Of a stretch of DNA of 64,000 bases, positions 8,288 to 56,178 are shown piece after piece. The position numbers and the translations under genes are program-made. Origin of the DNA: Streptococcus marmotae (lineage in GTDB: Bacteria; Bacillota; Bacilli; Lactobacillales; Streptococcaceae); the NCBI RefSeq assembly GCF_001623565.1, contig NZ_CP015196.1, positions 1,819,501 to 1,883,500 of the forward strand, given 5' to 3'. The notes under the pieces were generated by a model. The model saw only the letters and a program-made list of their open reading frames with translations. It made no database searches and was not told the DNA's origin. Within the stretch, counting starts at the first letter, position 1. The number at the start of each line of letters is the position of its first letter.

Positions 8288-8291
8288 AACA

Positions 8292-8930: not shown

Positions 8931-9002
8931 AATCTTTTACTCCTTTTAATTATTAATTCTATTTTAGTAAAAGTTTGTGAAAAATGCAACAGATTACACC
9001 AG

Positions 9003-9030
9003 AAAAAACAAGAAGAAATTCTTGTTTTTT
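9003..9030 (-). terminator. Terminator of the prs-desulfurase operon
   Basis: AAAAAACAAGAA (9003-9014), loop GAAA, TTCTTGTTTTTT (9019-9030). On the minus strand it touches the stop of the DUF4649 gene. Confidence 0.85.
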
Positions 9031-9244
9031 AGTGATTATTCGGGTCTATTGTTTTGAGATAACGATATAAATTGCCGATGGGTCCTTGATAACCTAAGTC
9101 TCGACCATCTTGAATGATTGAGTGTACTTTTAGGTGATCAGGAAGGGTCACGCAACCTGAAAAAGAGAGCAGTAGGTCCTCAAAGTTTTCAAAAGTTTGT
9201 GAGCGAATCTGCTGATAAGAATCTTGATAGCGCAGCTCAATCAT
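9029..9244 (-). CDS. Small conserved protein, DUF4649-like
   Basis: 71 residues, no signal or membrane segment. Sequence and position (last gene after the cysteine desulfurase and a DUF1831 protein) match the small DUF4649 proteins of streptococci. Its start overlaps the stop of the DUF1831 gene by 4 bp (ATGA type), so it is translationally coupled. Function unknown. Confidence 0.75.
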   Translation of the reverse strand: MIELRYQDSYQQIRSQTFENFEDLLLSFSGCVTLPDHLKVHSIIQDGRDLGYQGPIGNLYRYLKTIDPNNH

Positions 9245-9594
9245 GCTTTTGTACTTTCTTTTGTGAAAATATCTCGGTCAACTAAGCTATCCATAAGGAA
9301 GTAAAATTTTTCTTGGATAACGGTATTTCCACCTGCTTTAAAAATATCGACCAAATGTAGACCTGATTTGTCTGTAATATTGATTTTAAAACCAGTCAAA
9401 TCTTTATTGATAATAATTTTTAGAAGAAAGCCTTGATTAGAGTTGGGAATTTCTTCTAACATACGTGTTAATTGGTAATTACCAACCTGAGTCTGTTCAA
9501 ATGTATTGTCACGCAAGGTGTATTTTTTGATACCTGGGTGAATAGAGTAGGTATAGTCACAGTTTTTAAGCGTTACAGATGTTGTAAAAGCCAT
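9241..9594 (-). CDS. Conserved protein, DUF1831 family
   Basis: 117 residues. The pattern MAFTTSVTLKNCDYTYSIHPG at the start fits the DUF1831 family, which regularly sits beside a cysteine desulfurase in Lactobacillales. It overlaps the desulfurase stop by 1 bp and the DUF4649 gene by 4 bp. No catalytic motif is visible. A link to Fe-S or thiolation chemistry is inferred only from the constant neighbourhood. Confidence 0.8.
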   Translation of the reverse strand: MAFTTSVTLKNCDYTYSIHPGIKKYTLRDNTFEQTQVGNYQLTRMLEEIPNSNQGFLLKIIINKDLTGFKINITDKSGLHLVDIFKAGGNTVIQEKFYFLMDSLVDRDIFTKESTKA

Positions 9595-10715: not shown

Positions 10716-10724
10716 GGAAATCTC

Positions 10725-11702
10725 CTAGTTTTCAGTATTTGGATTTGTAAAATCGAAGAGAGGACTGACTGGACGTCGTTCGTGAATGCGGATAATGGCG
10801 TCTGCAATCAATTCACTAGCGGTAATAAAAGCAATATTTTTTGGTAATTGTTCTTTGCTTACAACAGAATCTGTGACGAGTACTTCCTTGATTGGGGCTT
10901 GATCTAAGAGTTCTGCTGCAGTACCTGCAAATAACCCGTGACTTGCAACTGCATAAATCTCCGTTGCTCCGCCTTCTTGTACAATTCGAGCTGCTTCTGA
11001 GAAGGTACGACCAGTGTTTAAGATATCATCAATCAAGATAGCTGCTTTTCCAGCAACATCTCCGATAATATACCCTTCTGAACGATCGGCATCGTCTTGG
11101 GCATAGTCGATAATAGCAATTGAAGAATTGAGGTATTCTGCTAAGCTGCGAGCACGCTTGATACCAGAATTTTTAGGACTCACAATCACAACATCTTCAC
11201 CACACAGCCCTTTTTCCATATAATGCTCTGCAAATAGTGGGACAGTAAAGAGATTGTCGACTGGAATATCAAAGAAACCTTGTACCTGAACAGCATGTAA
11301 ATCAAGTGACAAGACACGATCCACACCTGCTTTGACCAGCATATTCGCAACGAGTTTTGCTGTAATTGGTTCACGAGGAGCAGCTGTACGATCCTGACGA
11401 GCATAGCCAAAATAAGGCATAACGACTGTAACAGAATGAGCACTTGCACGCTTACATGCATCCACCATAATCAATAATTCCCAAAGATGATTATTGACAG
11501 GATAGCTAGTTGATTGGATGATATAAACATCCACCCCACGGACACTTTCTTCGATATTGACTTGAATTTCTCCGTCTGAGAATTGTCGAGTTGACATTTT
11601 CCCAAGTGGAATTCCGGATGCTTCAGCAATTTTTTCAGCAATTGCACGGTTGGAATTCAAAGAAAATAGTTTAATTTGTTTATCACCATACGGTTGAACC
11701 AT
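10725..11702 (-). CDS. prs: Ribose-phosphate pyrophosphokinase
   Basis: 325 residues. It makes PRPP from ribose 5-phosphate and ATP for purine, pyrimidine, NAD, histidine and tryptophan synthesis. The PRPP-binding loop is in [19 protein letters not shown] and the flexible loop in [13 protein letters not shown]. The segment [12 protein letters not shown] has Val where many class I enzymes have Gly. It corresponds to the second prs gene of streptococci by its neighbours (desulfurase, CYTH protein, relQ). AAAGGAG lies 11 nt before the start. Confidence 0.95.
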
Positions 11703-11779
11703 GATCAGAAATACTCCTTTTATTCGATAGTTCTATTTTATCAGAAAATCCCAAAATTTTCAGTAAAGAAATAGATCAG

Positions 11780-12010
11780 CTTGAAGAAAAAGTCTTTTTA
11801 TTGCCACCATCCTCATGTGCTTTCGGACATCAGCGACTTCCTTCGGAGTAAAATAATCCAGTGGATTATTTTAGTCCGAGCCCAGAAACAAAGGAGCGAG
11901 GATAATCGATTTCAACGAAATCACGACTTTTGTCTCACTCCCACTTTTAGCACGGCGGAGGTGGCGGTATTGTGCTCGCTACGCTCGCAAATTTTCTAAC
12001 CTTAAAACTA
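11780..12010. repeat. Gene-free block with hairpin and repeat-like sequence
   Basis: The 400 bp between prs and the CYTH gene holds no gene. At 11844-11878 an almost perfect palindrome (CGGA-G-TAAAATAATCC, loop AGT, and its complement) is present. The block TTTTGTCTCACTCCCA at 11928-11943 recurs as TTTGTCTCACTCCCA at 37957-37971. This looks like a dispersed streptococcal intergenic repeat; its limits are approximate. Confidence 0.5.
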
Positions 12011-12101
12011 CAGAAAATTAAATATTATTGTAATGTTTTTCTGAATTGTGAGGTTTGTCTACATTCTGATAGATTTCTTTTGAATTCGTTGGTTTATGAA
12101 C

Positions 12102-12680
12102 TCAAGGCTTGCTCATCAGACAGGCAGCTGTCCGAGCAACCTTGCTTTTAGCGTATTTAAAGGCAATTTGTCGCTGTTTCAGATACTCCTCAAAAGCCAT
12201 TTTCCCTTGACTAGCATCCTCTACCTCGACTTCTAATTCATAGTCTGTCTGCTCAGCATAGCTATTTTCATCAAGAGCCATCAGCCCAATAGGAGTCACT
12301 TTTTCATAGCGTCTTGTCGTCAAATCTCCCCAAACAATCAACTCTTCAAGGGCAATTCCAGTTTGTGTGATGAGGTCCAAGATATCCCCTTCAGGTAGCT
12401 CTACCTTTTGAATCAGTTGATGAGCGTGTTCAAGTAGCAAGGCTTGGTTGTATTCCTGATTGCCGATGTCTTGTGGAATTTTAAGAGTCAATTCTGCTCG
12501 GTCTTCTAAGGTGCGAATTCGTAGGGAATAGTGGTGTTGACGTAGGCTAAAATCTGCTGTGTCAATATAATAGTTGGTTTGAAGGACAGGAGCAACATCT
12601 GTAAATTCTGTCTGTAATTGTTGAAATTCGGCTGCCGTCAGGAGCGTTTTGTATTCAATTTCTAAATGATTTTTTTTCAT
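12102..12680 (-). CDS. CYTH domain protein (triphosphatase family)
   Basis: 192 residues starting MKKNHLEIEYKTLL; the ExExK signature (EIEYK) that defines the CYTH fold is at the very start. Family members hydrolyse tripolyphosphate or thiamine triphosphate or act as class IV adenylate cyclase; here a phosphatase is likelier. I chose ATG 12680 with AAAAGG 9 nt upstream; the frame is open to 12749 but would run over the relQ promoter. It is divergent from relQ, the arrangement conserved in streptococci. Confidence 0.88.
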   Translation of the reverse strand: MKKNHLEIEYKTLLTAAEFQQLQTEFTDVAPVLQTNYYIDTADFSLRQHHYSLRIRTLEDRAELTLKIPQDIGNQEYNQALLLEHAHQLIQKVELPEGDILDLITQTGIALEELIVWGDLTTRRYEKVTPIGLMALDENSYAEQTDYELEVEVEDASQGKMAFEEYLKQRQIAFKYAKSKVARTAACLMSKP

Positions 12681-12699
12681 AGGATAAAACCTTTTCGTA

Positions 12700-12708
12700 T
12701 GGTATAAT
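12700..12708 (+). promoter_or_regulatory. relQ promoter (extended -10)
   Basis: TGGTATAAT at 12700-12708, about 55 bp before relQ. The opposite strand offers TATTAT at almost the same place for the CYTH gene, so the two promoters overlap. Confidence 0.7.
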
Positions 12709-12762
12709 AGTTCTTGTGTTATTCTATTACAAAAACTAGTATTTGACAAGAAAGGAGCAGGT

Positions 12763-13434
12763 ATGGAAATGAATTGGGAAGCCTTCCTAGACCCTTATAT
12801 TCAGGCGGTTGGGGAATTAAAAATTAAACTGCGCGGTGTTCGTAAACAATATAGAAAAGCAAATAAGCATTCACCGATTGAATTTGTGACAGGACGTGTG
12901 AAGCCGATTGAATCCATCAAGGAAAAGATGGCTCTACGCCATATTCAGCTTGAAAATTTGGCACAGGACATGCAAGACATCGCAGGATTACGAATCATGG
13001 TGCAATTTGTTGATGACGTAGAAGAAGTACTTGACATCCTACGGAAGCGAAAAGATATGCGAGTGGTCTATGAACGCGATTATATCAATAATATGAAATC
13101 ATCAGGCTACCGTTCCTACCACGTGGTGATTGAGTATCCAGTTGATACGATAAATGGAAATGAAACAGTACTAGCTGAGATTCAAATTCGCACCTTGTCC
13201 ATGAATTTTTGGGCAACGATTGAACATTCCTTAAACTATAAGTATAAGGGGAATTTTCCAGAAGAAATTAGGCAACGCTTGGAAATTACAGCTAAGATTG
13301 CTTATCAATTAGATGAGGAGATGCGCAAAATCCGCGATGACATTCAAGAAGCTCAGGCCTTATTTGACCCGGCCTACCGCAAGTTGAATGACGGAGTTGG
13401 AAACAGCGACGATACAGATGAAGAATACAGATAG
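12763..13434 (+). CDS. relQ: Small alarmone synthetase RelQ
   Basis: 223 residues, a synthetase-only (p)ppGpp enzyme without hydrolase, TGS or ACT domains. It transfers pyrophosphate from ATP to GDP or GTP. Motifs visible: [14 protein letters not shown] with the conserved Tyr/His region, and [17 protein letters not shown]. The C-terminal helices (about 190-223) serve tetramer formation in the family. AAAGGAG precedes ATG 12763; a second ATG 6 nt later is possible. It overlaps NAD kinase by 17 bp, so alarmone and NADP synthesis are coupled in one operon. Confidence 0.95.
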
Positions 13435-14236
13435 AAAAAAAATCGCCCTGCTCAGCAGTAAAAACCCAAAGAGCCAAGCTGTGATGAATGAGTTGTGGAC
13501 CAAATTAAAAGAAGCCCAATTTATTTTAACACCTAAAAATCCAGATATTGTTATTTCAATTGGGGGAGATGGGATGCTCTTATCTGCTTTTCATAAGTAC
13601 GAGGCAATGATGGATCGTGTTCGCTTTGTCGGCATTCATACAGGGCACCTTGGTTTTTATACGGATTATCGCGATTTTGAAGTTGATAAACTGATTGATA
13701 ATTTAAAATTAGACACAGGAGCTCGTGTTTCCTATCCGATTTTAACTGTACGAATTAAGCTGATGAATGGTCGAGATATTGTCATGCGGGCCTTGAATGA
13801 AGCGACTATTAAACGTTTATCAAAAACTATGGTTGCAGATGTTTTTATCAATAAAGTGCCTTTTGAGCGTTTCCGTGGTGATGGTATTTCGGTGTCAACT
13901 CCCACTGGTTCAACAGCCTACAATAAATCTTTAGGAGGAGCTATTTTGCACCCGACCATTGAAGCATTGCAGATTGCAGAAGTTGCCAGTCTGAACAATC
14001 GCGTCTATCGGACCTTGGGTTCTTCCATTGTTGTTCCTAAAAAGGACAAGATTATGATTGAGCCAAAACATGATGATCGCTATTCGGTATCGATTGACAA
14101 TCGGACCTTTGTTTATGATAATATTGATCGGATTGAATACCAGATTGACAATAGCAAAATTCATTTTCTAGCTACTCCGAGCCACACTAGCTTTTGGAAT
14201 CGTGTCAAAGATGCCTTTATTGGTGAGGTAGAGTAA
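13418..14236 (+). CDS. nadK: NAD kinase
   Basis: 272 residues. It phosphorylates NAD to NADP with ATP. GGDGMLL near residue 48 and [16 protein letters not shown] are the family motifs. The start MKNTDRKK at 13418 matches known streptococcal proteins; it lies 17 bp inside relQ. An earlier in-frame ATG at 13388 is less likely. It overlaps the pseudouridine synthase by 1 bp (TAATG). Confidence 0.95.
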
Positions 14237-15132
14237 TGCGCTTTGAATTCATTGTGGATCAACATGTAAAAATTAAGACATTTTTGAAAAAACATGATGT
14301 TTCAAAAGGACTATTAGCTAAAATCAAGTTCGAGGGTGGCGCAATTATTGTTAATGGAAAACCGCAGAATGCGACCTATTTACTGGATATTGGTGATCAT
14401 TTGAGTATCGATATTCCTAGCGAAGAAGATGTGACGGGAAGTTTGGAGCCAATTTCTCATCCCTTAGATATTGTCTATGAAGACGAGCATTTTATGGTTA
14501 TCAATAAACCAGCCGGATTTGCATCTATCCCAAGTATTCTGCATTCGTCAACCATTGCCAATTTTGTCAAGGGATATTATTTAGAACAAGGATATGAAAA
14601 TAAACAGGTGCATATCGTCACACGTCTCGACCGTGATACATCAGGTCTCATGCTCTTTGCTAAACACGGCTATGCACATGCAAGACTAGATAAACAATTA
14701 CAGGAAAAATTGATTCAAAAGCGTTATTTTGCCTTGGTTTATGGTAGCGGTCCATTAGAAGAAAAAGGGGAGATTATCGCCCCTATTGGCCGCCCAGAAG
14801 ATAGCATTATCACACGTTGTGTGATGCCGACTGGAAAGTATGCGCATACGTCCTATGAAGTCGTTCAGTCTTGGGGAGATATCCACTTAGTTGATATTCA
14901 GTTGCATACTGGAAGAACGCATCAGATCCGCGTTCATTTTGCGCATATTGGCTTTCCTTTATTGGGAGACGACCTGTATGGTGGCAGTATGGAGCATGGG
15001 ATAGAGCGGCAAGCATTACACTGTCATCGCATCGGATTTTTTAATCCGTTTTCAGAAAAAGAATTAATTTGTGAAAGCGATTTGACAAATGACTTTAAAA
15101 GCGTTATCATGAATTTGCAAAATAAAAATTAG
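14236..15132 (+). CDS. Pseudouridine synthase, RluA/RluD family
   Basis: 298 residues. The catalytic aspartate lies in VTRLDRDTSGLMLFAK. The N-terminal part (about 1-75) is a degenerate S4-like RNA-binding region. Substrate, 23S rRNA or tRNA, cannot be told. Start ATG overlaps the stop of NAD kinase. The gene is the last tightly packed one of the relQ operon; pta follows after 123 bp. Confidence 0.92.
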   Translation: MRFEFIVDQHVKIKTFLKKHDVSKGLLAKIKFEGGAIIVNGKPQNATYLLDIGDHLSIDIPSEEDVTGSLEPISHPLDIVYEDEHFMVINKPAGFASIPSILHSSTIANFVKGYYLEQGYENKQVHIVTRLDRDTSGLMLFAKHGYAHARLDKQLQEKLIQKRYFALVYGSGPLEEKGEIIAPIGRPEDSIITRCVMPTGKYAHTSYEVVQSWGDIHLVDIQLHTGRTHQIRVHFAHIGFPLLGDDLYGGSMEHGIERQALHCHRIGFFNPFSEKELICESDLTNDFKSVIMNLQNKN

Positions 15133-15160
15133 AAAGACACATAGCCTTTTGTTTGGATTT

Positions 15161-15217
15161 ATTACTGGGTAACATGACGCAGGCATAACTAGAGTTAAGC
15201 AAGACGTGTTAATGATG
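15161..15217 (-). repeat. Dispersed intergenic repeat, partial copy C
   Basis: The stretch ACTAGAGTTAAGCAAGACG with TGTTAATG matches, with changes, ACTAGAGTTTAGGAAGATG and AGTTAAC of copy A. It fills the gap between the pseudouridine synthase and pta. Confidence 0.45.
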
Positions 15218-15255
15218 TAATAAAGAAAATGAAAAGGGCTATAAAGGTTAAGAAA

Positions 15256-16251
15256 ATGGGAATTCGTTCACTATTTGGTTGTTTGCGTGAAAAAATTGTT
15301 GGAAAGCAAGTTAAAATTGTTTTTCCAGAAGGAAATGATGAGCGCGTGGTACGTGCAGCTGCACGGTTGAAATTTGAAGGATTGGTAGAACCAATTATTC
15401 TTGGAAATCCCGAAGAGGTAAGCACTTTACTGGCTGATATCGGTTTTGCAGATCCTCAATGCACTGTTATCAATCCGGAAGAGTATGCAGATTTCGAAGC
15501 GATGAAAGAGGCATTTGTAGAAGTTCGTAAGGGCAAGGCTACACTAGAAGATGCAGATAAGTTGTTACGAGATGTCAATTACTTTGGTGTCATGCTGGTG
15601 AAAATGGGCTTGGCAGATGGAATGGTATCTGGTGCGATTCATTCAACTGCTGATACAGTACGTCCAGCACTTCAAATCATCAAAACAAAGCCAGGTATTT
15701 CTCGTACATCAGGTGTCTTCTTGATGAACCGTGAAAATACCAGTGAGCGTTATGTCTTTGCTGATTGTGCAATCAATATTGACCCAACTGCTCAGGAATT
15801 AGCAGAAATTGCTGTCAATACAGCAGAAACAGCAGCTATTTTCGATATTGATCCTAAGGTTGCTATGCTCAGCTTCTCTACAAAAGGTAGCGGTAAAGCT
15901 CCACAAGTGGATAAGGTGGTTGAAGCAACGCGCATTGCGAAAGAGTTAGCACCGGATTTGGCTCTGGATGGAGAATTGCAATTTGATGCAGCTTTTGTGC
16001 CAGCTACAGCAGCGATTAAAGCTCCAGATAGTGATGTAGCAGGTCAAGCAAATGTCTTTGTTTTCCCAGACTTACAAGCAGGAAATATTGGCTATAAAAT
16101 TGCACAACGCTTGGGAATGTTTGATGCAATTGGTCCAATCTTGCAAGGTTTGAACATGCCAGTAAATGATTTGTCTCGCGGATCAAGTGCGGATGATATT
16201 TATAAATTGGCTATTATTACGGCTGCCCAGGCATTGGAAAATGAAAAGTAA
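15256..16251 (+). CDS. pta: Phosphate acetyltransferase
   Basis: 331 residues. It converts acetyl-CoA and phosphate to acetyl phosphate, which acetate kinase uses to make ATP. Family region: SGAIHSTADTVRPALQIIKT and LSFSTKGSG. Start MGIRSLFG at 15256 fits known streptococcal proteins and has AAAGG 8-12 nt upstream; the frame is open back to 15229. The end touches the ABC exporter gene (1 bp apart). Confidence 0.95.
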   Translation: MGIRSLFGCLREKIVGKQVKIVFPEGNDERVVRAAARLKFEGLVEPIILGNPEEVSTLLADIGFADPQCTVINPEEYADFEAMKEAFVEVRKGKATLEDADKLLRDVNYFGVMLVKMGLADGMVSGAIHSTADTVRPALQIIKTKPGISRTSGVFLMNRENTSERYVFADCAINIDPTAQELAEIAVNTAETAAIFDIDPKVAMLSFSTKGSGKAPQVDKVVEATRIAKELAPDLALDGELQFDAAFVPATAAIKAPDSDVAGQANVFVFPDLQAGNIGYKIAQRLGMFDAIGPILQGLNMPVNDLSRGSSADDIYKLAIITAAQALENEK

Positions 16252-45536: not shown

Positions 45537-45579
45537 TGCCTTGTATCTAGTTGAATTCTACAATAGAAAGGAGAAAAAG

Positions 45580-48500
45580 ATGTTTTTTAGAAAAAAAGAT
45601 CGTTTTTCAATTCGGAAATTTAAGGTAGGAGTGGGTTCTGTTTTCCTAGGCTCAGTCCTTTTGGGTGCCCCAACTGTATATGCTGAGGAAACAGCGGTTG
45701 CTGTAAATTCAGATACAGAAGCAGTTGCAGCCACTACAGAACAGCCAGAGACAGCAACTGGAGCAAGCGAAACTCCAGCAACTATTGAAGAAAAGGTAGC
45801 TAAAGAAGTTTCAGCTAAACCAGAAGAAAATGCGGCTGCTGCTGTTGAAGAAAAAGCGGAGACTGGTAAAGCAGCAGAAGTCTTGACTGAAGAAGTAAAA
45901 CCAGAAAGTGTAGAGGTTCCATCAGTGGATTTAAGCGCTGAAAAAGCCACAGTAGTGAGCCGTATCAATGGTTATGAAAATTTGTCAGAAGAGCTAAAAG
46001 CAAGCTTTATCACATGGGTCAACGAAGTGACAGATGCTACAGCTCTCGAAGCCCTTGCTGACGAAGTAAGACGTGCCAACCGTCCAAAAGCACCAAGCAG
46101 AGAAGAAGCCTTTCCAAATCAAGGACAGTCTTTTAACAATCTAGGAACATCAGGCTTCCGTGAGACAGGAGTTACAACTCCTACCTCTCCGCTACTAGAA
46201 AATGCTGAGAAGATTCAAGCAGATAATCAGCCTAAAATTCAAAATGATTATAGTGTTACAGATCCAAAAACACCTAAGTACCTTGATCCAGTAGCAGGAC
46301 GTTATACCTATGCCAATATAGGCTACAAAGAAAACCCAAATTTGAAGTATATCCTATCTATTGATAGTGAAGCTCCAGCAACTGGAAATAAGCCTCCTCA
46401 TGTCTATGTAACTCCTGTTGATGCGGACGGAAAACCATTAGCAGAAGCATTTGTCGCAGATACGAATCAACAAGGATCTTCGAGCCCTTTTTCTGAGATT
46501 GATCCTAAAAACCCCACTGTCTCGGTGGGGAAAGATGGACAGATTACAATTTCTCCTGAAAAAGCAAGTGATAAAAGCCATAAAATTGGGATTGAGGAGA
46601 ACTTATTAGCGACAAATCGGACATCTGTTGTGCATCTAGATGAATCAGTTATCGGTGCGCCTGTTTATGATGAACAAGTGACCAAGTATGTAGAATATAA
46701 AACAAATAAACCATTGTTATCTGATTATACGCAATCTGGGTGGAGCGGGTTCAATTATACAACCGAACCATTTGATATTCCAGGATATAAATTAGTCTCT
46801 AAAAATGAGAATAAAGATGGGATTGTAACAGAGACGCCAACAATTCTTGCAGGGGATACTACTTATAAAAGATTGGTAGCACCATTAGGAAAAGGTCCGA
46901 TGACCATTTACCGTAAGGTTGTTTTCGATACAAATACTGGTCATGGTACTGCGACTATCTATGTAAGTCCAAAGAACGCTGATGACCCAGCAGATGCAGC
47001 GACACTACCAAGTGCAGAGGAGTTCTTTGCCAATATCAAAAAATACACAACTTTTGATCATAAATATTATGTATCAGAAGCAGACCTAAACGATCCTGAA
47101 TCGACCTATAATTTATATATCAATGAGGAGGCTAGCCAGAGATTTGCTAAAGATCCGAGCAAGTCACTTGATGAGCATAAGAAGGAAATAATTGCTTCGT
47201 ATTTTGCAACAACGACTTCATCTGATCGTGAGGCTTTCTACCATGCACCGATTGCTAAGAAAACAGCTTCTGCATTTAAGGAAGAAGGTTTTGAAAACGG
47301 CGAATATCTAGTGCATTCAGCTGTGAATGGTCGTCCGTTTGAGTTCGCTGGAGGTCCAAACGATCGTATACCTTTCTATGAACCATTGATCAATGCTCCA
47401 GGAAATGTGACTGGTATTGCGACTATCCGTAATGGTTGGAGACAATCGGATAGCGTTATTTACGAGTATGCGAAAATTGAAAAAGTTGAGGCAGAGTACT
47501 TCGTAGAAAATACAGATACTCACTTGTATCCAGAACTAGCGGATTATGACAAAGAAAATCCTACGAAAAAATTAGTCGCTGAAGACATTGACGGCAAGGA
47601 CTATTCAGATAAGGATGTTCCACCAACTTTGACAGACAAAGATGGTATTGTTTATGAATTAGTCGTTAAAGAAGGCAAGCCTGTCTTGAAAGATGGTTCA
47701 GCACCACAAGAGGGAATCATTGCCTATGGTGGCGGACAAGTCATCCAGTATCAATATGCTGCTAAAAAAGGTGGCGAAGTAGCTGCTCAGTATTATGTAG
47801 AAGGCACAACAACTCGTCTGTACCCAGAAGACAATACAGATAAGAGCGATACGGTTGTCAAAGCGAAAGACACACCTGTTGGAACGAAGTACGAAGATAC
47901 CCCGCCAACAACCTTGAAGGATAAAGACGGTGTTGTTTATGAATTGGTGACAAATCCTGACGGAACACCAAAAGTCAAGACAGAATCAGCTCCAACGACA
48001 GGTACGGTTACTGAAGAAAAACAAGTCATTCAGTATGAATATGCTGCTAAAAAAGGTAGTCAAGTTACAGTAGAATATGTGGATACTGAAGGAAAACCTA
48101 TCCATAAACCTGCAGAAGTAAAACCTAAAGATACGCCAGTTGGAACTTCGTATGATTCAGAGCCACAAAGAGAAAATACTATCAAAGACCCTGAAACTGG
48201 TAAGACCTATAAACTAGTGACCAAAGAAGGTAACTATCCAGTCGGAGATGTTGCCAAGGATGGGCACCTAGTAACCTCAAAACTTGGTACAGAAGGTGTT
48301 GATGAGCCAACTGGTCAAGTAGGTGAAACACCAAAAGTGATTACCTATGTCTATGAAGAAGTCAAAGGTGATGTCGTTGTCCTTTACCGTGTCAATGGTA
48401 CAGGCGAAGCTATCACAGGTGTCGGAAGCAATGGCGTGACGATTGGAAATGTCTCAACAGCAGATACTCAAGATAAGCAAGATGATGCGGATCGTACAGA

Positions 48501-50529
48501 GTGGGTAGGTGCTGTAATTGATACGCCTGCATCTTCAACAGGTTCAGACTATACAACGACTGATAATCGTCCAGATAAGATTACGACAAAAGACGGCAAA
48601 GTCTACAAACGCATCGAAAAAGTTGCTGGAGCTGAGGATGGTAAAGTTGTTGAGGGGACGACACGTATTGTCTACTATTATGAACTCCAAAAAGGTAATG
48701 TCGATGTAACCTATGTAGATACGGATGGAAAACCAATTGCACCAGCTAAAGAGGTTGCAAAAGAAGCCGATACAGGTACAAATTACAATACTAAAACGGA
48801 CGAATTAAAACCATCAACCATTACGACTGCTGACGGTAAGACTTATGAGCTCGTACCGGCAGGTGAATATGGAGTAGGTGACGTTGATAAGGATGGCCAC
48901 TTGGTAAGCTCTGCACCAGTTGGCGGTAAGGTCAAAGATGAAAATCAAACAGTTATCTATGTCTACAAAGAAGTCAAAGGTGATGTCGTTGTTCATTATA
49001 CAGACAAAGACGGCAATCCAATTTCTAAAGATGTGACAGATACACCAGAAACATCAACCGGTAAAGACTACGATACGAAAGACAACCGTCCGGAAGAAAT
49101 CAAAACTCCAGATGGTAAGACCTACAAACGTGTTCCAAACTTGACGAAAGGTGAGGAAGACGGTAAAGTCACACCAGGTACAACCGAAGTGACTTATGTC
49201 TACGAAGAAGTCAAAGGTGATGTCCTTGTCCACTATGTAGACGAATCTGGCAATCCAATCGCTAAAGATGAGACAGATACACCGTTAACATCAACTGGTA
49301 CAGTGTATGAAACCTTCGATCATAAACCAATCACCATCACAACAGCTGACGGCAAGACTTATGAGCTTGTACCAAGTAAGACTATCGGAGCTGAAAAAGG
49401 TAAGGTCGTTGAAGGTAGAACTGAAATTACTTATGTCTACAAAGAAGTTCCACCAACAGATACTCCAGAAAGATATATACCTTATATTCCAAAAGATCCT
49501 AAGAATCCAGTAGATCCAAATGATCCTCATGATCCAACGATCCCAGAGACAGGCGGAAAAATTCCAGAAGTACCGTACGATGAGACACCAGAAGATCCGA
49601 GTGATGATCCACGATTGCCAGAAGTTCCAGACTACATACCAGTAGATCCAAGCGATCCAACAAAACCATTACCAAAGGATCCAAATGGCGGCTATATTCC
49701 ACCAACTCCAGTAGATCCGAAAAAACCAACTCCAGTACCATATCTTCCAGCAGGTACAGTAACTGTTCACTATGTGAATGAAGAAGGTAAAGTGATTCAA
49801 AATCCAACAATTGATACACCAAAATCGCTAGTTGGAACGGATTACAATACCAATGAAAATGGTAGAGAAATTCCGAAAGAAATTACTGGTAAGGATGGTC
49901 TAGTCTATGAACTGGTGAAGGTGAAAGAAGGCGATAAGGAAATTGGTAAGGTTGTCAAAGGAAACACAGATGTTACCTATATTTATAAGTTGAAAGAAGG
50001 CGACCTTGAAGTCAACTATGTGGATGAAGCTGGCAATCCAGTAGCACCACAAGAAAACAGTAAAGGCAAACCGAACGATCCATATACAACAACTCCAAAA
50101 GAGATTGAAGGCTATGAATTGGTACGCGTAGAAGGTGACGAACCAAGCGGTCGCTACACAAATGGCCATAAGAAAGTAACCTACGTGTACAAGAAGAAAC
50201 CAACTACACCAGTACCTCCAGTAAGACCAGTTCCGCCGGTAACGCCACCAACAACACCGGTTCCACCAGTAACACCTCCAACAACTCCAGTACCACCAAC
50301 TCCAGGTAAACCAGTTGAGCCAAGTAAACCGGTAGAACCAAGCAAACCAGCTGAGCCAGCAACACCAGCCGCTCCAAGCACTCCTGCTCAACCAGTAGAA
50401 CCAGCGAAAGCGGAATTACCAAACACAGGTGATACTGCAGGAAATGTTGCATTTGCATACGGCGTTACCGCATTAGGAGTTGCGGCCTTACTTGGATTGG
50501 GCAAGAAAAAATCAGAGGATGAGAGCTAG
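45580..50529 (+). CDS. LPXTG-anchored surface protein with YSIRK signal and MucBP repeats
   Basis: 1649 residues. RFSIRKFKVGVGSVFLGSVLLG (about 7-28) is a YSIRK-type signal peptide, directing export to the septum. Next come an Ala/Glu-rich part (30-110), a three-helix GA-like segment (about 115-165), a unique region (about 170-635) and nine MucBP-like domains of 70-105 residues starting near 636, each ending VIxYxYxxxKG. A Pro-rich spacer (about 1290-1390) divides seven from two. The C-terminus has a Pro-rich wall region, LPNTG at 1613-1617, hydrophobic segment and charged tail. MucBP domains bind mucins in known proteins, so adhesion is likely. AAAGGAG decides ATG 45580. SrtA is encoded at 6118. 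Confidence 0.93.
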   Translation: MFFRKKDRFSIRKFKVGVGSVFLGSVLLGAPTVYAEETAVAVNSDTEAVAATTEQPETATGASETPATIEEKVAKEVSAKPEENAAAAVEEKAETGKAAEVLTEEVKPESVEVPSVDLSAEKATVVSRINGYENLSEELKASFITWVNEVTDATALEALADEVRRANRPKAPSREEAFPNQGQSFNNLGTSGFRETGVTTPTSPLLENAEKIQADNQPKIQNDYSVTDPKTPKYLDPVAGRYTYANIGYKENPNLKYILSIDSEAPATGNKPPHVYVTPVDADGKPLAEAFVADTNQQGSSSPFSEIDPKNPTVSVGKDGQITISPEKASDKSHKIGIEENLLATNRTSVVHLDESVIGAPVYDEQVTKYVEYKTNKPLLSDYTQSGWSGFNYTTEPFDIPGYKLVSKNENKDGIVTETPTILAGDTTYKRLVAPLGKGPMTIYRKVVFDTNTGHGTATIYVSPKNADDPADAATLPSAEEFFANIKKYTTFDHKYYVSEADLNDPESTYNLYINEEASQRFAKDPSKSLDEHKKEIIASYFATTTSSDREAFYHAPIAKKTASAFKEEGFENGEYLVHSAVNGRPFEFAGGPNDRIPFYEPLINAPGNVTGIATIRNGWRQSDSVIYEYAKIEKVEAEYFVENTDTHLYPELADYDKENPTKKLVAEDIDGKDYSDKDVPPTLTDKDGIVYELVVKEGKPVLKDGSAPQEGIIAYGGGQVIQYQYAAKKGGEVAAQYYVEGTTTRLYPEDNTDKSDTVVKAKDTPVGTKYEDTPPTTLKDKDGVVYELVTNPDGTPKVKTESAPTTGTVTEEKQVIQYEYAAKKGSQVTVEYVDTEGKPIHKPAEVKPKDTPVGTSYDSEPQRENTIKDPETGKTYKLVTKEGNYPVGDVAKDGHLVTSKLGTEGVDEPTGQVGETPKVITYVYEEVKGDVVVLYRVNGTGEAITGVGSNGVTIGNVSTADTQDKQDDADRTEWVGAVIDTPASSTGSDYTTTDNRPDKITTKDGKVYKRIEKVAGAEDGKVVEGTTRIVYYYELQKGNVDVTYVDTDGKPIAPAKEVAKEADTGTNYNTKTDELKPSTITTADGKTYELVPAGEYGVGDVDKDGHLVSSAPVGGKVKDENQTVIYVYKEVKGDVVVHYTDKDGNPISKDVTDTPETSTGKDYDTKDNRPEEIKTPDGKTYKRVPNLTKGEEDGKVTPGTTEVTYVYEEVKGDVLVHYVDESGNPIAKDETDTPLTSTGTVYETFDHKPITITTADGKTYELVPSKTIGAEKGKVVEGRTEITYVYKEVPPTDTPERYIPYIPKDPKNPVDPNDPHDPTIPETGGKIPEVPYDETPEDPSDDPRLPEVPDYIPVDPSDPTKPLPKDPNGGYIPPTPVDPKKPTPVPYLPAGTVTVHYVNEEGKVIQNPTIDTPKSLVGTDYNTNENGREIPKEITGKDGLVYELVKVKEGDKEIGKVVKGNTDVTYIYKLKEGDLEVNYVDEAGNPVAPQENSKGKPNDPYTTTPKEIEGYELVRVEGDEPSGRYTNGHKKVTYVYKKKPTTPVPPVRPVPPVTPPTTPVPPVTPPTTPVPPTPGKPVEPSKPVEPSKPAEPATPAAPSTPAQPVEPAKAELPNTGDTAGNVAFAYGVTALGVAALLGLGKKKSEDES
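47484..50196 (+). repeat. Tandem MucBP-type coding repeats
   Basis: Nine imperfect units start near 47484, 47776, 48058, 48367, 48688, 48973, 49210, 49756 and 49999. Units 6 and 7 are closest: both contain a YxDxxGNPIxKDxTDTP core. DNA similarity between units offers room for recombination and length variation. Confidence 0.8.
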
Positions 50530-51042: not shown

Positions 51043-51079
51043 AAAAAGCGTTTACAAACATTCAATTGAATGTTAAAAT
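51043..51079 (+). promoter_or_regulatory. Promoter of the sulfur operon with palindromic operator and cre-like site
   Basis: TTTACA (51051-51056), 17-nt spacer, TAAAAT (51074-51079). The perfect palindrome AACATTCAATTGAATGTT occupies 51057-51074, exactly the spacer plus one base. The form ATTCA/TGAAT is typical for ArsR family operators. AAAAAGCGTTTACA at 51043-51056 resembles a cre site over the -35. Confidence 0.75.
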
Positions 51080-51117
51080 AAGATTGAAAAAAATATCACA
51101 AACTAAGGAGGTAGGAA

Positions 51118-52815
51118 ATGCATAAAAAATATATTGTCGTCGGTGGTGTTGCGGGAGGAGCTTCTGTAGCAGCTCGTCTCCGTCGAATCGATGAACAGGT
51201 TCCGATTCAAATCTATGACAAAGGATACGATGTCTCCTTTTCCAATTGCTGTCTGCCCAACTACTTTAGTGGAGAAGTTGCAGAGATCGAAAACTTGATT
51301 TTTTATAATCCAATGAGTTTGAAGCAGACTTATAACCTAGACGTTAAAGTCCGTCATGAAGTTATCAAAATCCTTTCAGATCAGCACAAGGTCGTAGTGA
51401 AAAATCTAGAAACTGGTGAGGAGTTTGAAGACAGCTATGATGCCTTGATTCTATCACCCGGAGCAAAAGCAATCTTGCCACGCTCTATTAAGGGAAATGA
51501 TAGCCCGCATGTGTTTAGCTTGAAAAATGTTTCCGATGTGCGTTCTATTGACCAGCATTTAACGGTTGAACAAGCAGAAGAAATTGTTGTTGTCGGTGGT
51601 GGTTTTATTGGTGTAGAAGTAGCAGAGTGCTTTAAAAAGACTGGGAAAACAGTCCATCTAGTAGAAGCAAGCTCACAAATCATGACACCTTTTGACGAGG
51701 ATATGGTCCAGATGTTACACAAGGAGCTTCTAGACAATGGTGTTGATCTTATCTTGGAAGATGCGGTAGAAGAAATTACAAAAGACACTGTCCGTCTTGC
51801 TAGCGGTAAAACTTTACCTGCTCAAGCAGTTATTATGGCAATTGGTGTGGCTCCAGATGTTGATTTTGCCGTTGAATCTGGTATTCAGTTGGGTGAAACA
51901 GGAGCGATTGCGGTTGATGCGACCTACCAGACCAATTTACCAGATGTCTATGCGATTGGAGATGCGATTGAAGTGACCAATCGTCAGACAGGCAAGAAAA
52001 TGCGCTTGCCGTTAGCGGGACCTGCCCAAAAGCAAGCACGAAATCTAGCAGATGCCCTAGCTGGTCAACCACAAGCAAATCGTGGAGTAATTGGTTCATC
52101 TTGTATCCGTGTTTTCGGCTTAAATGCAGCAGCTACTGGTCTCAATGAAAAGAGTTGCCAAGCTCAAGGTATTGATTATCGTGTTGCCCTCGTGATTCCA
52201 AATGACCGTGTTGGCTTAATGCCAGAGGCTTCGCCAATGCACTTCAAACTCGTTTATGAATACCCAACTGGTAAGGTACTCGGCGCCCAAGCTATTAGTA
52301 AGGGAAATCCAGTCAAGAATATTAATGTCATTGCGACCATTATCAGTATGGGTGGTTACTTGGAAGATTTGAAAGACTTGGAATTGTGTTATGCGCCTGC
52401 CTTTTCTACAGCGAAAGATGTCGTGAATTTTGCAGGGATTGTCGGCTTGAACTATTTACATGGTGCTTACGAACAAGTACCTGTTACAAGTGTCCGCAGC
52501 TTGGTTGAAAATGGAGAATTTATCCTTGATGTCCGTGGCAAAGCAGCTTTTGAAGCCTCACATATCAAGGGCGCTGTGAATATTCCTTTGGATGAAATTC
52601 GCGAGCGCTTAGATGAAATTCCAAAAGATAGACCAGTCTACATTCATTGCCGCACTTCTTGGAATAGTTACTATGCCATCTGTGCTTTAAAAGGCTACGG
52701 ATACGACAATATCATCAATATCCAAGGTTCTTTCCTGATGTTGAGCTATTATGAGTACTTTAAAGATCAGACGACGGGTCGTGAGCCGATTGTCACAGGC
52801 TATAATTTTAATTAG
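51118..52815 (+). CDS. cdr: CoA-disulfide reductase fused to rhodanese
   Basis: 565 residues. Flavoprotein part (about 1-450): FAD loop VVGGVAGGASVAARLRR, active Cys44 in SFSNCCLPNYFSG followed by an unusual second Cys45, NAD loop IVVVGGGFIGVEVAE. A rhodanese domain (about 470-555) has catalytic Cys511 in HCRTSWNSYYA. In this family (CoADR-RHD) the enzyme reduces CoA disulfide, CoA persulfide or polysulfide with NAD(P)H, and the rhodanese part carries sulfane sulfur. AAGGAGG precedes ATG. The next gene begins 2 bp after the stop. Confidence 0.93.
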   Translation: MHKKYIVVGGVAGGASVAARLRRIDEQVPIQIYDKGYDVSFSNCCLPNYFSGEVAEIENLIFYNPMSLKQTYNLDVKVRHEVIKILSDQHKVVVKNLETGEEFEDSYDALILSPGAKAILPRSIKGNDSPHVFSLKNVSDVRSIDQHLTVEQAEEIVVVGGGFIGVEVAECFKKTGKTVHLVEASSQIMTPFDEDMVQMLHKELLDNGVDLILEDAVEEITKDTVRLASGKTLPAQAVIMAIGVAPDVDFAVESGIQLGETGAIAVDATYQTNLPDVYAIGDAIEVTNRQTGKKMRLPLAGPAQKQARNLADALAGQPQANRGVIGSSCIRVFGLNAAATGLNEKSCQAQGIDYRVALVIPNDRVGLMPEASPMHFKLVYEYPTGKVLGAQAISKGNPVKNINVIATIISMGGYLEDLKDLELCYAPAFSTAKDVVNFAGIVGLNYLHGAYEQVPVTSVRSLVENGEFILDVRGKAAFEASHIKGAVNIPLDEIRERLDEIPKDRPVYIHCRTSWNSYYAICALKGYGYDNIINIQGSFLMLSYYEYFKDQTTGREPIVTGYNFN

Positions 52816-52817
52816 CT

Positions 52818-54134
52818 ATGTCTAAAGGATTGTCAAAATTAGATGTAAGTGCCCTCGTGATTGGCGCTGTGATTGGATGGGGGTCTTTCTACTTACCGGG
52901 AAATAAATTTTTACCAGAAGCAGGAGTAATCAATACGGCTATTGGATTTTTAGTCGGTGGTATTTTAATCTATGCCATTCAAGTAGCCTATCATACGATG
53001 ATGTTTCGACATCATGAGCAGGGAGGAGAATTTTCCTATACGCTGGTTCATCTCGGAAAGAAACATGGATTTGTCGTTGGTTGGGCACTTAGCTTTTGTT
53101 ACCTAACACTGATTTCCTTAAATGCAACAGCCGTTGTCTTGGTGCTTAGAGAAATCTTGGGGACTGTTTCCTATGGCTATCTCTACACGATTGCAGGCTA
53201 TCCTGTTTACCTATCAGAGATTGGCATAGGGATGGGCATTATCTATTTCTTTTACTGGATTAACAAGCGCGGTTTAGTCCTGTCGATGACCTTTCAAAAA
53301 ATCTTGATTCTCTGTTTGGTTGCGACGGTTGTTATCTTGAGTATATGGATGTTTTTCCATGGAAATAAGCAGCAGTTCTACGCGTCTTATGTCGCACATT
53401 ATCAGCTTGATTGGGCAGCTATTATCAGAGTGGTCGCCATTATCCCCTTCTTATTTGTTGGCTTTGATATTGTCCCTCAGGTGATGACGGATTTAGGCTT
53501 TTCCATCAAGGCGGCGACCAAGGTGACCCTGCTTGCGACAATGGTCGGTGTCTTGATTTATAACTTGTTAAATCTGATGACGGCTCTGGCCTATTCACCT
53601 ACTCAGGCCAAACACCTAGCCTGGGCAAGTGGCAGTGCAGTCTTGACCTATGCAGGCTGGTTAGGCTTTGGAGCTCTTTGTATCGCCTTGTTTGCAGCAG
53701 TTGTGGGCGGAATTAACGGCTTTCTAATCGCAAGTAGTCGGGTGGTGTCCTCGCTTGCTCTTTATGAGTTGCTGCCGAGTCGCTATGCACAACAAAATCG
53801 ACACCAAGTAGCGGAGCAGGCCTTGAAATTTGTATCGCTGATTGCAGCTTTGCTCTTATTTTTAGGGCGCGAGGTCATCTTGTATATTGTCGATTTATCA
53901 AGTCTCATGGCGGCAGTCACCTATGCCTATGTTTGCTTTATCAGCGCTAAACTGGCTAAAAGTCCAGTTGATAAACGATTGAGCCAGTTAGGTGTTGTTA
54001 TTAGTTTCTTCTTTATCGGATTACTTCTAGTACCAGGTTCTCCTAGTCAACTAGGCGGTATTTCGATGGGGATTTTAGTTGGTTGGATATTGCTAGGTTT
54101 CTTATACTTTAGAGTGACTAGCAATCGGAAATAA
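52818..54134 (+). CDS. APC superfamily transporter
   Basis: 438 residues with about 11-12 membrane segments; the first helix has the GAVIGWGSFYLPG motif typical of the APC amino acid transporters. It is wedged between CoA-disulfide reductase and a YeeE-like permease with hardly any gap, so it probably imports a sulfur-containing amino acid or related compound. That substrate is inference. No good ribosome site; translation is likely coupled to the preceding gene. Confidence 0.85.
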   Translation: MSKGLSKLDVSALVIGAVIGWGSFYLPGNKFLPEAGVINTAIGFLVGGILIYAIQVAYHTMMFRHHEQGGEFSYTLVHLGKKHGFVVGWALSFCYLTLISLNATAVVLVLREILGTVSYGYLYTIAGYPVYLSEIGIGMGIIYFFYWINKRGLVLSMTFQKILILCLVATVVILSIWMFFHGNKQQFYASYVAHYQLDWAAIIRVVAIIPFLFVGFDIVPQVMTDLGFSIKAATKVTLLATMVGVLIYNLLNLMTALAYSPTQAKHLAWASGSAVLTYAGWLGFGALCIALFAAVVGGINGFLIASSRVVSSLALYELLPSRYAQQNRHQVAEQALKFVSLIAALLLFLGREVILYIVDLSSLMAAVTYAYVCFISAKLAKSPVDKRLSQLGVVISFFFIGLLLVPGSPSQLGGISMGILVGWILLGFLYFRVTSNRK

Positions 54135-54153
54135 AAAATTTAGGAGAATAAAA

Positions 54154-55416
54154 ATGAAAAATATTGAGCGTATTACAGGGATAGTGGGGATCGTTGCTAT
54201 CCTGTTATTTGGGCACTATTATCTGTCATCAGACATGCTGTTTTTCCGCTTGGTCATCGGTGCTGGTTTAGGTTATACCTTGAGTAGAGGGTATACAGGC
54301 TTTGCAGGAAGTGTTAATCGTGCGTATCGAACAGGTTCTACACGTCTGATGCGGACGATGATGATGATGTTCTTTATTACCTGTCTGCTCAGCGCAGCTT
54401 TCTTATTCAATGTGGATGCTTCCACTTATGATTTATGGGTCAATCCAATTAACTGGGGCTTGTTGCTAGGAGGTATTCTCTTTGGTTTTGGGATGACTTT
54501 CTCATCTTGTTGTGCTTCAGGTGTATTGACCGATTTGGTGACAGCCCTTCCTAGAGGACTATTAACCTTGATTTTCTTCTGTTTGGGTGTCTTTATCGGC
54601 TTTCCTATTCAAAATAGCGCTTCTTGGATTCAAAAATCTTGGGTAACAAGTGAAACTGGTGAAAAACTCTACGGTGGAGTCTACTTGCCTGACCTTTTCA
54701 AATTTGATGGCTTAGATGGGTACTTAGGCGCTCTTGTTCTAACTGGTATCTTGTGTCTTCTTGTTATCTGGATGGCACATCGCTACGAAGCTCGTCGGAA
54801 GCAAGATGGGACTTATTCTGGCCATTTCGGTGAAAAAATCCAAGATATGGAAGTAAATGAAGTAGCAACTGAAGCACCTATAACTGTAGGAGATTGGTAT
54901 GATCGTCTATTTGTAAAAGCTTGGTCTTTACGTACAGCAGCAGTTGTATTAGCGATTCTTTTTACCCTATTGATGGGGATTACCAAGGCTGGTTGGGGTG
55001 CTAGCACACCTTACGGTCTATGGTTTGGACAAGTTTTACTCTTGTTTGGTGTTGATGCGTCCAGTCTTGCAAGCTTTACCTTGATGCCAGAAAAAGCCTT
55101 TACCACACCATTTTTAAACCATCCAATCAGTGTTCAAAACTTGGGAATTGTGTTTGGTACAATCATCTTCTTGCTAACCTCAGGTACCTTTACAAAAGTC
55201 TGCAAATCAGAATTACGGATTACAAAGAAACAAGCTTTCTTCTACATTTTAGGTGGTTTCCTGATGGGTTTTGGGACACGTCTGGCCAATGGATGTAATG
55301 TCGGAGCACTCTTTACACCGATTGCAAATTTCTCCCTATCTGGTTGGATATTTCTCATCTTCCTCGTGAGCGGTGGTATTTTGGGAAATATGGCTGCCAA
55401 AAAATGGAACGTATAG
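54154..55416 (+). CDS. YeeE/YedE family permease, TsuA-like thiosulfate transporter
   Basis: 420 residues, two repeated membrane halves. The conserved cysteines that handle thiosulfate in TsuA have counterparts: Cys119/Cys120 in FSSCCASGVLTD and Cys381 in LANGCNVGALF. TTAGGAG precedes the ATG. It likely brings thiosulfate or another sulfane sulfur ion into the cell, where the rhodanese-type enzymes of the operon can use it. A terminator follows, ending the operon. Confidence 0.88.
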   Translation: MKNIERITGIVGIVAILLFGHYYLSSDMLFFRLVIGAGLGYTLSRGYTGFAGSVNRAYRTGSTRLMRTMMMMFFITCLLSAAFLFNVDASTYDLWVNPINWGLLLGGILFGFGMTFSSCCASGVLTDLVTALPRGLLTLIFFCLGVFIGFPIQNSASWIQKSWVTSETGEKLYGGVYLPDLFKFDGLDGYLGALVLTGILCLLVIWMAHRYEARRKQDGTYSGHFGEKIQDMEVNEVATEAPITVGDWYDRLFVKAWSLRTAAVVLAILFTLLMGITKAGWGASTPYGLWFGQVLLLFGVDASSLASFTLMPEKAFTTPFLNHPISVQNLGIVFGTIIFLLTSGTFTKVCKSELRITKKQAFFYILGGFLMGFGTRLANGCNVGALFTPIANFSLSGWIFLIFLVSGGILGNMAAKKWNV

Positions 55417-55424
55417 ATAATTTG

Positions 55425-55458
55425 ACTCTTACTTCTGCAAGGAAGTGAGAGTTTTTTT
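55425..55458 (+). terminator. Terminator of the sulfur operon
   Basis: ACTCTTACTTC (55425-55435) pairs with GAAGTGAGAGT (55442-55452) with one T-G pair, then seven T. Confidence 0.85.
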
Positions 55459-55478
55459 CAATCAGATAGCAAAAGATA

Positions 55479-55501
55479 TGGTATAATCAATACTGTATAA
55501 T
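55479..55501 (+). promoter_or_regulatory. Promoter of the ArsR-rhodanese gene
   Basis: TGGTATAAT (55479-55487) and a second TATAAT (55496-55501) lie directly before ATG 55504; the leader would be about 10 nt or absent. Confidence 0.55.
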
Positions 55502-55503
55502 AA

Positions 55504-56178
55504 ATGGAAGAGAAAAGAGTAAGAGTTGTGTTAGATGACAGACAGTATATGGATCAGGTATTCAAAGAATATGTACGCATCGGGAAAGCCTTATCTAGCG
55601 AAAAACGTTTAGAACTATTACATCGCCTCATTCATGGGCCTAAATCCGTTGAGCAGCTCGCTAAGATGACAGATATGACGATTGCGAATACCTCTAGGCA
55701 CTTGCAAGTGTTAAAAGAGGCTAGTCTAGTGACATTAAAAAAAGATGGGAAATACGTTTGGTACAGCGTTTCATCAGAAATGGTAGAACGATTATTGCAA
55801 GATATTCACCAGATTAGTGAGGAGCAATCACCGATGCTGGGATTTATCGAACAGCAATTTATAGCGAGTGACGACCAGATAAAGACCATTGATTTAGCGG
55901 AAGCAAAAAATAAGGTCTTTGCTCGTCAGGCTCAGCTAGTGGATTTACGGTCCGAGGTGGAGTTTGAACTGGATCATGTTGAGGGGGCAGTCAATATTCC
56001 TTATGCTGTTTTGGAAGATAATTTAGAAAAATTGAATAAGGATAAGACTATTATCTTATATTGCAGAGGGATGTTTTGCACCTATGCGAACCAAGCTGCA
56101 GCTGTTTTAAATCGGAGTGGATATGAAGCTTATAGTGTTAACGGCACGCATTTTGACTGGAAGCGTGATGGTCAGTAG
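55504..56178 (+). CDS. ArsR family regulator fused to rhodanese
   Basis: 224 residues. Winged helix at about 25-100 (SSEKRLELLHRL, SVEQLAKMTDMTIANTSRHLQVLKEA), then a rhodanese domain (about 130-220) with active loop CRGMFCT, Cys187 and Cys192. A rhodanese attached to a DNA-binding domain can sense persulfide or polysulfide by modification of these cysteines. It lacks the cysteine metal site of classical ArsR proteins in the DNA-binding part. It is the obvious candidate for binding the palindrome at 51057. The start could also be GTG 55528. Confidence 0.9.
   Translation: MEEKRVRVVLDDRQYMDQVFKEYVRIGKALSSEKRLELLHRLIHGPKSVEQLAKMTDMTIANTSRHLQVLKEASLVTLKKDGKYVWYSVSSEMVERLLQDIHQISEEQSPMLGFIEQQFIASDDQIKTIDLAEAKNKVFARQAQLVDLRSEVEFELDHVEGAVNIPYAVLEDNLEKLNKDKTIILYCRGMFCTYANQAAAVLNRSGYEAYSVNGTHFDWKRDGQ

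Follow-up and report, generated by a model that had tools for sequence, protein, structure and literature searches.

A probable three-gene unit and the regulator gene beside it

This analysis concerns a window of 64 kb (the whole stretch of DNA analysed) from the 2.32-Mb genome of Streptococcus marmotae (G000; contig NZ_CP015196.1, here C1, positions 1819501-1883500), and within it three genes for a reductase and two permeases, followed by a gene for a regulator in which an ArsR domain is joined to a rhodanese domain (ArsR-rhodanese). The reductase belongs to the CoA-disulfide reductase-rhodanese family (CoADR-rhodanese) and the permeases to the APC and YeeE families, and a palindrome in the promoter ahead of them is our candidate for the site at which the ArsR-rhodanese acts. 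The features are as follows, in positions of the window:

51051-51079, plus strand: likely sigma-70-type promoter of the operon, TTTACA-17 bp-TAAAAT, with 10/12 consensus matches
51057-51074, no strand assigned: perfect 18-bp palindrome AACATTCAATTGAATGTT spanning the 17-bp promoter spacer; proposed ArsR-rhodanese operator
51118-52815, plus strand: CoADR-rhodanese, 565 aa; Pfam domains Pyr_redox_2, Pyr_redox_dim and Rhodanese
52818-54134, plus strand: APC permease, 438 aa; Pfam domain AA_permease_2; 2 bp past the reductase gene
54154-55416, plus strand: YeeE-family permease, 420 aa; Pfam domain Sulf_transp; 19 bp past the APC gene
55424-55453, plus strand: terminator-like hairpin followed by a T-run, between the YeeE and regulator genes
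55504-56178, plus strand: ArsR-rhodanese, 224 aa; Pfam domains HTH_20/HTH_5 and Rhodanese; 87 bp past the YeeE gene

The four-gene set with gaps of 2 and 19 bp, described in an earlier note on this DNA, is borne out by the coordinates and the Pfam domains. Of 12 streptococcal genomes with a close relative of the regulator, 11 keep the same gene order, each with a different reductase gene, which argues that the arrangement did not come about by chance. The genes for the CoADR-rhodanese, the APC permease and the YeeE permease would form one transcription unit, from 51118 to 55416, whereas the ArsR-rhodanese gene is probably a unit of its own outside the operon, because the terminator-like hairpin parts it from the YeeE gene. 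In all 11 operons this gap contains a hairpin with T residues after it, as judged from folding and visual inspection (it is weakest in L034); the terminator scan proper covered the window. The compact operon with its own regulator that the earlier note proposed thus stands for the three genes and for the adjacency of the regulator, but probably not for a place of the regulator inside the operon. The regulator start at ATG 55504 may be wrong, since the first eight residues are not common to the relatives, and GTG 55528 is the alternative.

A palindrome in the promoter as candidate operator

Promoter-like matches are no more frequent in the region than in shuffled sequence (9 against a shuffle mean of 14.1), and the promoter call therefore rests on conservation: in 11/11 streptococcal operons the palindrome core sits in the 17 bp that part two similar hexamers, 41-46 bp ahead of the reductase start, and it is exact in six of them and has one mismatch in the other five. 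The window holds one match to the palindrome, for a chance expectation of 0.02 (exact 12-bp core) or 0.12 (18-mer with at most 3 mismatches), and the exact core occurs once in the whole 2.32-Mb genome. There are 21 further places with a one-mismatch core (4 for the reversed control pattern), and all 21 fall in open frames read from stop to stop. The uniqueness of the exact core, together with the position of all one-mismatch cores in open frames, suggests a repressor with a single genomic target; a wider regulon, which we considered, is not supported by these places. This follow-up covered sites with at most one mismatch to the core, and six of them belong to one repeat array, where the test was made on the first copy and extended to the remaining five through their coordinates. 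The array itself (L157, G000:C1:1370367-1371563) has a period of 237 bp, lies in a long open frame and carries one one-mismatch core per copy.

It is very likely, judging from this conservation, that the neighbouring ArsR-rhodanese controls the module through the promoter palindrome. The palindrome was not found in the fetched S. cuniculi sequence in which the regulator occurs without the three genes, and ATTCAA-N0-8-TTGAAT was not found in the fetched stretch of a Bacilli locus (L138) that has the three genes without an ArsR-rhodanese. Ahead of the regulator gene itself no operator core is seen in the window, L017 or L019-L022 (best 4-6 mismatches), and L023 comes to 3 mismatches, so that autoregulation of the ArsR-rhodanese through the 18-bp site appears unlikely. 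In L018, which lacks the operon, there are operator-core places with two mismatches.

A regulator with its cysteines in a rhodanese loop

The only cysteines of the window regulator are C187 and C192, which both belong to its rhodanese loop, YCRGMFCTYAN. The CRGxxC pattern recurs in 35/35 relatives (a count that leaves out L036), 27 of which have no other cysteine, and the extra cysteines of the remaining eight are not common to all. The ArsR domain is free of cysteine in the window protein and in the 12 sequences of alignment A1, and the protein accordingly lacks the two conserved cysteines that dithiol sensors such as SqrR, BigR and SoxR carry in the ArsR fold; the BigR model NF040642 gives 40 of 155 bits, below its cut-off. 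The ArsR/SmtB winged-helix fold is nevertheless present, with 69.8 bits for NF033788 against a cut-off of 55. A structure predicted from 12 sequences, of modest quality (mean pLDDT 75.2, pTM 0.51), places the CRGxxC loop between a strand (182-186) and a helix (193-204), that is, at the active-site place of a rhodanese. In Foldseek one half of the model matches CzrA, HlyU and SqrR and the other half matches rhodaneses, including CoADR-RHD; among the 50 matches listed none exceeds a TM score of 0.38 by query length, so that no listed match spans both domains.

A reductase subtype and two permeases

The closest solved relatives of the reductase are 3icr, the Bacillus anthracis CoADR-RHD (residues 3-541 aligned, E 7.8e-126), and 8a56, the Enterococcus faecalis CoAPR (residues 4-541, E 4.2e-118), and the protein has the fold of a FAD/NAD(P)H reductase with a C-terminal rhodanese. 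Cys44 of the flavin site (SFSNCCLP) and the rhodanese Cys511 are invariant in 7/7 aligned reductases. Most distant relatives have Ser or Ala in place of the second cysteine of the window protein, Cys45, and the double cysteine was dropped as a hallmark in favour of SFSNCxLP, as the distant relatives read SFSNCSLP, SFSNCALP and, in one case, SFSNCCLP. This signature sets the subtype apart from ordinary streptococcal CoADR-rhodaneses, which read SFANCGLP in 23/23 proteins examined. The neighbourhoods differ likewise: YeeE and APC genes lie within 1.5 kb of all seven subtype reductases and of none of the 23 ordinary ones (23 of 52 matches, 1.5 kb on each side).

The YeeE-family permease scores 184.8 bits with PF04143 (Sulf_transp) against a cut-off of 27, and in this sense it belongs to the same permease family as the TsuA of TsuA-TsuB (YeeE-YeeD; PMC11073785). 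Two of the three key TsuA cysteines align, C91 and C293 with C120 and C381 of the streptococcal protein, and these are the two described as indispensable (PMC11582611), which favours a thiosulfate importer. The third, C22, is replaced by Gly49, and the streptococcal permease is also longer (420 aa against about 340) and comes without YeeD/TsuB in its operon. A TusA-family match over the cut-off is found in 0/6 examined operon-bearing relatives and in 1/8 genomes overall, namely the window's own, where it is fused to another reductase outside the operon.

For the APC transporter, no PDB chain is matched by sequence at E <= 0.001, and no relative with a known cargo was found. Over most of its gene (53030-54079) the DNA identity to the G115 gene is 97-100%, against 76-97% for the remainder of the block, an identity pattern that is best read as recent exchange of this segment.

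Distribution in streptococci and beyond

In a sample of 147 Streptococcus genomes, an ArsR-rhodanese (counted at E <= 1e-20) is present in 11, eight with the close type and three with only a paralogue of 41-42% identity; the window genome has both. The reductase subtype (at least 80% identity) occurs in seven of the 147, all within the eight close-regulator genomes, and in 0/139 others, so the earlier note's remark that the set is unusual in streptococci was fair. Named carriers are S. cuniculi CCUG 65085, S. acidominimus, S. plurextorum, S. bovimastitidis and three strains filed as S. suis. The exception to the gene order is S. cuniculi WM131 (G010), in which the regulator is present and the three genes are replaced by other small genes; these are many (L018:8475-15860) and, at a guess by eye, perhaps immunity genes. 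In S. cuniculi CCUG 65085, a tandem duplication of the start of a downstream gene together with a 28-residue regulator end lies at a contig end (L029:7670-8479) and may be an assembly artefact. The surroundings of the block, which we take to be a lactonase-like gene, two kinds of ribosomal protein genes and, in the window genome, an oligopeptidase-like gene, differ between carriers, and this suggests that the block moved as a unit. A plasmid origin finds no support, as the plasmid collection contains no YeeE relative at E <= 1e-20. ArsR-rhodanese relatives do occur in 196 plasmid records, all below 60% identity and mostly from Lactiplantibacillus and Leuconostoc.

At higher ranks, relatives of the APC permease are found in 6/295 genomes of the order (E <= 1e-50) and 4/348 of the class (E <= 1e-90). 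Two carriers outside the genus (G301 and G662) have the gene order YeeE, reductase, APC, and the stretch around it holds no ArsR-rhodanese; the APC relative of G327 has no YeeE or reductase neighbours. Across the phylum a profile of the reductase (E <= 1e-210) matches 9/348 genomes, one of which is that of the window. A YeeE gene stands beside the reductase in 6/8 of the other phylum relatives (five at 55-59% identity, one at 32%), and in one of the eight (G1007) YeeE, reductase and APC are all three together. An ABC transporter, recognised by resemblance of sequence ends, adjoins the reductase in 5/8; the only one scanned, in L172, is nearest to taurine/sulfonate importers, its binding protein scoring 225.4 of 304 bits, below the cut-off. 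Double-rhodanese proteins with signal-like starts accompany the reductase in 4/8 (three proteins scanned). The L172 stretch (7356-15971, from an anaerobe-type genome) holds YeeE, the reductase, the taurine-like ABC transporter and two double-rhodanese proteins with signal-like starts. The sulfur-linked gene set of the earlier note is a conserved module in streptococci, but by this survey the three-gene module is older than the streptococcal set and occurs outside the genus without the ArsR-rhodanese.

Other ArsR-rhodaneses and a second sulfur system

In Lactobacillales, other ArsR-rhodaneses are found in 25/395 genomes and 15/80 genera. These mostly have thioredoxin-type neighbours, with genes for thioredoxin, thioredoxin reductase or DsbA-like proteins within 5 kb in 16/20 fetched loci. 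Outside Streptococcus the survey took in 20 of 21 matches, G287 being left out, and the names of the neighbours are presumed ones, in part from BLAST to S. pseudopneumoniae genes. The thioredoxin-linked proteins share the domain order and the CRGxxC loop of the streptococcal regulator but differ from it in sequence (about 40% identity), in neighbours and in the putative site, TTCAA-N8-TTGAA, which lies near 17/25 other ArsR-rhodaneses (immediately after the regulator gene or no more than 300 bp ahead of it), where about 0.4 would be expected from the density in other parts of the same loci; the other eight loci lack it at that place. One operator for the whole family was rejected on this ground. 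The CA/TG letters common to both motifs (-7/-6 and +6/+7 from the centre) carry no weight, being fixed by the search pattern in one class.

The second ArsR-rhodanese of the window genome (L027:7940-8605, G000:C1:119954-120604) lies 1.3 Mb from the thioredoxin operon (L163:2564 onward), which is still preceded by two TTCAA-N8-TTGAA sites. On the strength of the thioredoxin-type neighbours and of these sites, the family is, as far as gene context tells, linked to thiol and sulfur redox.

CsoR-family matches are found in 4/9 module-bearing genomes (G000, G117, G124 and G662), and in the first three the gene lies at most 0.5 kb from an ordinary CoADR-rhodanese. In the window genome (L142:6451-9275, at 2.23 Mb of C1), a CsoR/CstR-family gene stands beside an 825-aa CoADR-rhodanese-TusA fusion.

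Discussion

We think it fairly probable that the YeeE permease imports a sulfane-sulfur compound, that the reductase uses NAD(P)H to turn it into H2S and that the ArsR-rhodanese de-represses the operon in response. Transport direction and cargo, catalysis, repression and bridge chemistry are what we infer from the genes and sites described above. The permease would import a species such as thiosulfate or polysulfide, and the APC transporter would move a related cargo. Sulfane sulfur would be accepted by the rhodanese domain of the reductase and handed on to enzyme-bound CoA, and the resulting CoA persulfide would be reduced at the flavin site (Cys44), NAD(P)H serving as electron donor, to give CoA and H2S. 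The cell might thereby obtain sulfide from which to make amino acids, re-oxidise its NAD(P)H while fermenting or rid itself of surplus persulfide. The ArsR-rhodanese would be expressed constitutively from a promoter of its own and, bound to the 18-bp palindrome that lies between the -35 and -10 hexamers, would block RNA polymerase; when sulfane sulfur rises, C187 would become persulfidated, C192 would close a disulfide or polysulfide bridge and the repressor would leave the DNA.

A bolder version, which we put forward tentatively and hold at somewhat less than an even chance, is that the ArsR-rhodanese represents a distinct sensor class, an arrested enzyme whose rhodanese loop serves as the switch through a C187-Sn-C192 bridge, and that the streptococcal module is an electron sink acquired as a block. 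The loop would then act by sulfurtransferase chemistry, with thiosulfate, CoA persulfide or polysulfide as the donor of sulfane sulfur, and the YeeE permease and reductase would constitute a cytoplasmic route of sulfane-sulfur reduction guarded by the ArsR-rhodanese.

Several observations weigh against import and reduction under this regulator. The reductase falls below the NCBIfam equivalog cut-offs (TIGR03385 410.1 of 578.8 bits, NF007123 357.8 of 458, NF010037 321.5 of 394), so that its family, as judged from fold and architecture, holds while the name of CoA-disulfide reductase equivalog does not. Likewise, 'TsuA-like', the earlier note's term for the permease, is right as to the Sulf_transp family and loose as a label, the two NCBIfam TsuA models giving 52.6 of 400 and 33.9 of 645 bits. 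Canonical YeeE thiosulfate uptake requires YeeD (PMC11073785), and the operon has no gene for this partner; with a TusA match in one of eight genomes and glycine at the place of C22, thiosulfate is a doubtful cargo, and the 'thiosulfate-type importer' of the earlier note is weakened. The proposed operator is unlike the site beside other ArsR-rhodaneses, and its recognition by this one is for that reason not self-evident. The subtype occurs without YeeE beside it in L175 (L167, on a 3.3-kb contig, is too short to tell), and the NSR of Thermotoga maritima is of a different subtype and not encoded together with YeeE. Finally, the operon may be a partial duplicate in function, since in the window genome a CstR-like gene adjoins another CoA reductase, the one with the TusA fusion.

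The same gene set could serve defence against persulfide stress only, the YeeE and APC proteins exporting or balancing sulfur without any role in nutrition or electron acceptance. This would agree with the known roles of CstR-CoAPR in E. faecalis (PMC9405070) and of BigR-yeeE-yedE-pdo2 in Acinetobacter baumannii (PMC7315123), and a single-target operon under a sensor would suit it; yet a second such system would be redundant in G000, G117 and G124, where a CstR-family gene and another CoADR-rhodanese are already present, an objection that is itself weakened by the absence of a CstR-family gene from 4/7 tested streptococcal genomes. As the YeeE relatives of known direction are importers, and as the taurine-like ABC importer and the exported rhodaneses of distant relatives point to acquisition, we consider a purely defensive role rather unlikely. 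Much the same judgement, improbable without being far-fetched, applies to uptake of organosulfur, in which the APC transporter would import cystine, S-sulfocysteine or a taurine-like compound, the sulfur would be reduced and YeeE would handle the inorganic by-product. Here the APC partner in Bacilli (and in G1007) and the taurine-like ABC importer as partner in 5/8 phylum relatives speak for it, while the taurine-type models stay below cut-off (225 of 304 bits) for the L172 transporter, the only one scanned, and the APC family has yielded no relative of known cargo.

Could the palindrome belong to another repressor, with the ArsR-rhodanese controlling something else and its linkage incidental? 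The motif spacing, which differs from that of the sites near other ArsR-rhodaneses, and the transcriptional separation of the regulator would allow this, but regulator and motif co-occur in 11/11 operons, in at least four chromosomal surroundings, and the genome has no other intergenic near-copy of the motif, which makes the idea quite improbable. Selenium metabolism in place of sulfur metabolism was suggested by the selenium-linked YedE/FdhT model NF033796, the top NCBIfam match of the permease (94.2 bits); this score is far under the cut-off of 350, and selD is over its cut-off in 0/9 module-bearing genomes, with weak matches below it in 7/9. We rejected a selenium role on both counts and regard it as extremely unlikely. 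Import and reduction of sulfane sulfur, sensed by the ArsR-rhodanese, remains our preferred reading.

The kinds of component are known and their combination seems undescribed: in the open-access literature searched (most subscription papers lie outside it) no title or abstract start among the papers listed describes the gene set or an ArsR-rhodanese regulator. One of the two closest precedents is the NSR and yeeE of Thermotoga, a fermenter in which a CoA-linked flavin reductase and a YeeE permease serve to reduce sulfane sulfur in the cytoplasm. With NAD(P)H as reductant and CoA as a stimulant, the T. maritima NSR acts on both thiosulfate and polysulfide, and thiosulfate induces yeeE (PMC9431562). 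There, however, yeeE lies with dsrE/tusA homologues and apart from the NSR gene, and the available passages mention no ArsR-rhodanese or APC transporter (PMC9431562). The other, the cst-like operon of E. faecalis (CstR, RhdA, RhdB and CoAPR), also joins a reductase with a C-terminal rhodanese, which reduces CoA persulfide, to a sulfur-sensing repressor (PMC9405070), but CstR is of the CsoR family, the regulator at the streptococcal operon being an ArsR-rhodanese, the reductase is of another subtype and the operon as described has no YeeE or APC gene. In A. baumannii, the ArsR-family repressor BigR senses persulfide and controls the transport genes yeeE-yedE together with pdo2; it does so with C34 and C100 in the ArsR fold and no rhodanese, and the enzyme oxidises persulfide (PMC7315123). 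Hyphomicrobium similarly pairs the YeeE-like importers SoxT1A/SoxT1B with the ArsR-type sulfane-sulfur repressors SoxR/sHdrR, in an oxidative system of Alphaproteobacteria with three conserved permease cysteines and no reductase (PMC11582611, PMC12423496).

If the proposed pathway is correct, some fermentative Bacillota would reduce imported sulfane sulfur in the cytoplasm, for which the best evidence in the literature consulted comes from Thermotoga, and a widespread regulator family, uncharacterised in the literature searched, would gain a defined signal. It would also help to assign the SFSNCxLP reductase subtype and its YeeE partner. With one repressor, one operator, one genomic target and two cysteines, the case is a compact one.

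The stretch directly ahead of the operon (45541-50529) encodes a long LPXTG-type surface protein (1662 aa), which has repeated domains and a signal at its N terminus.

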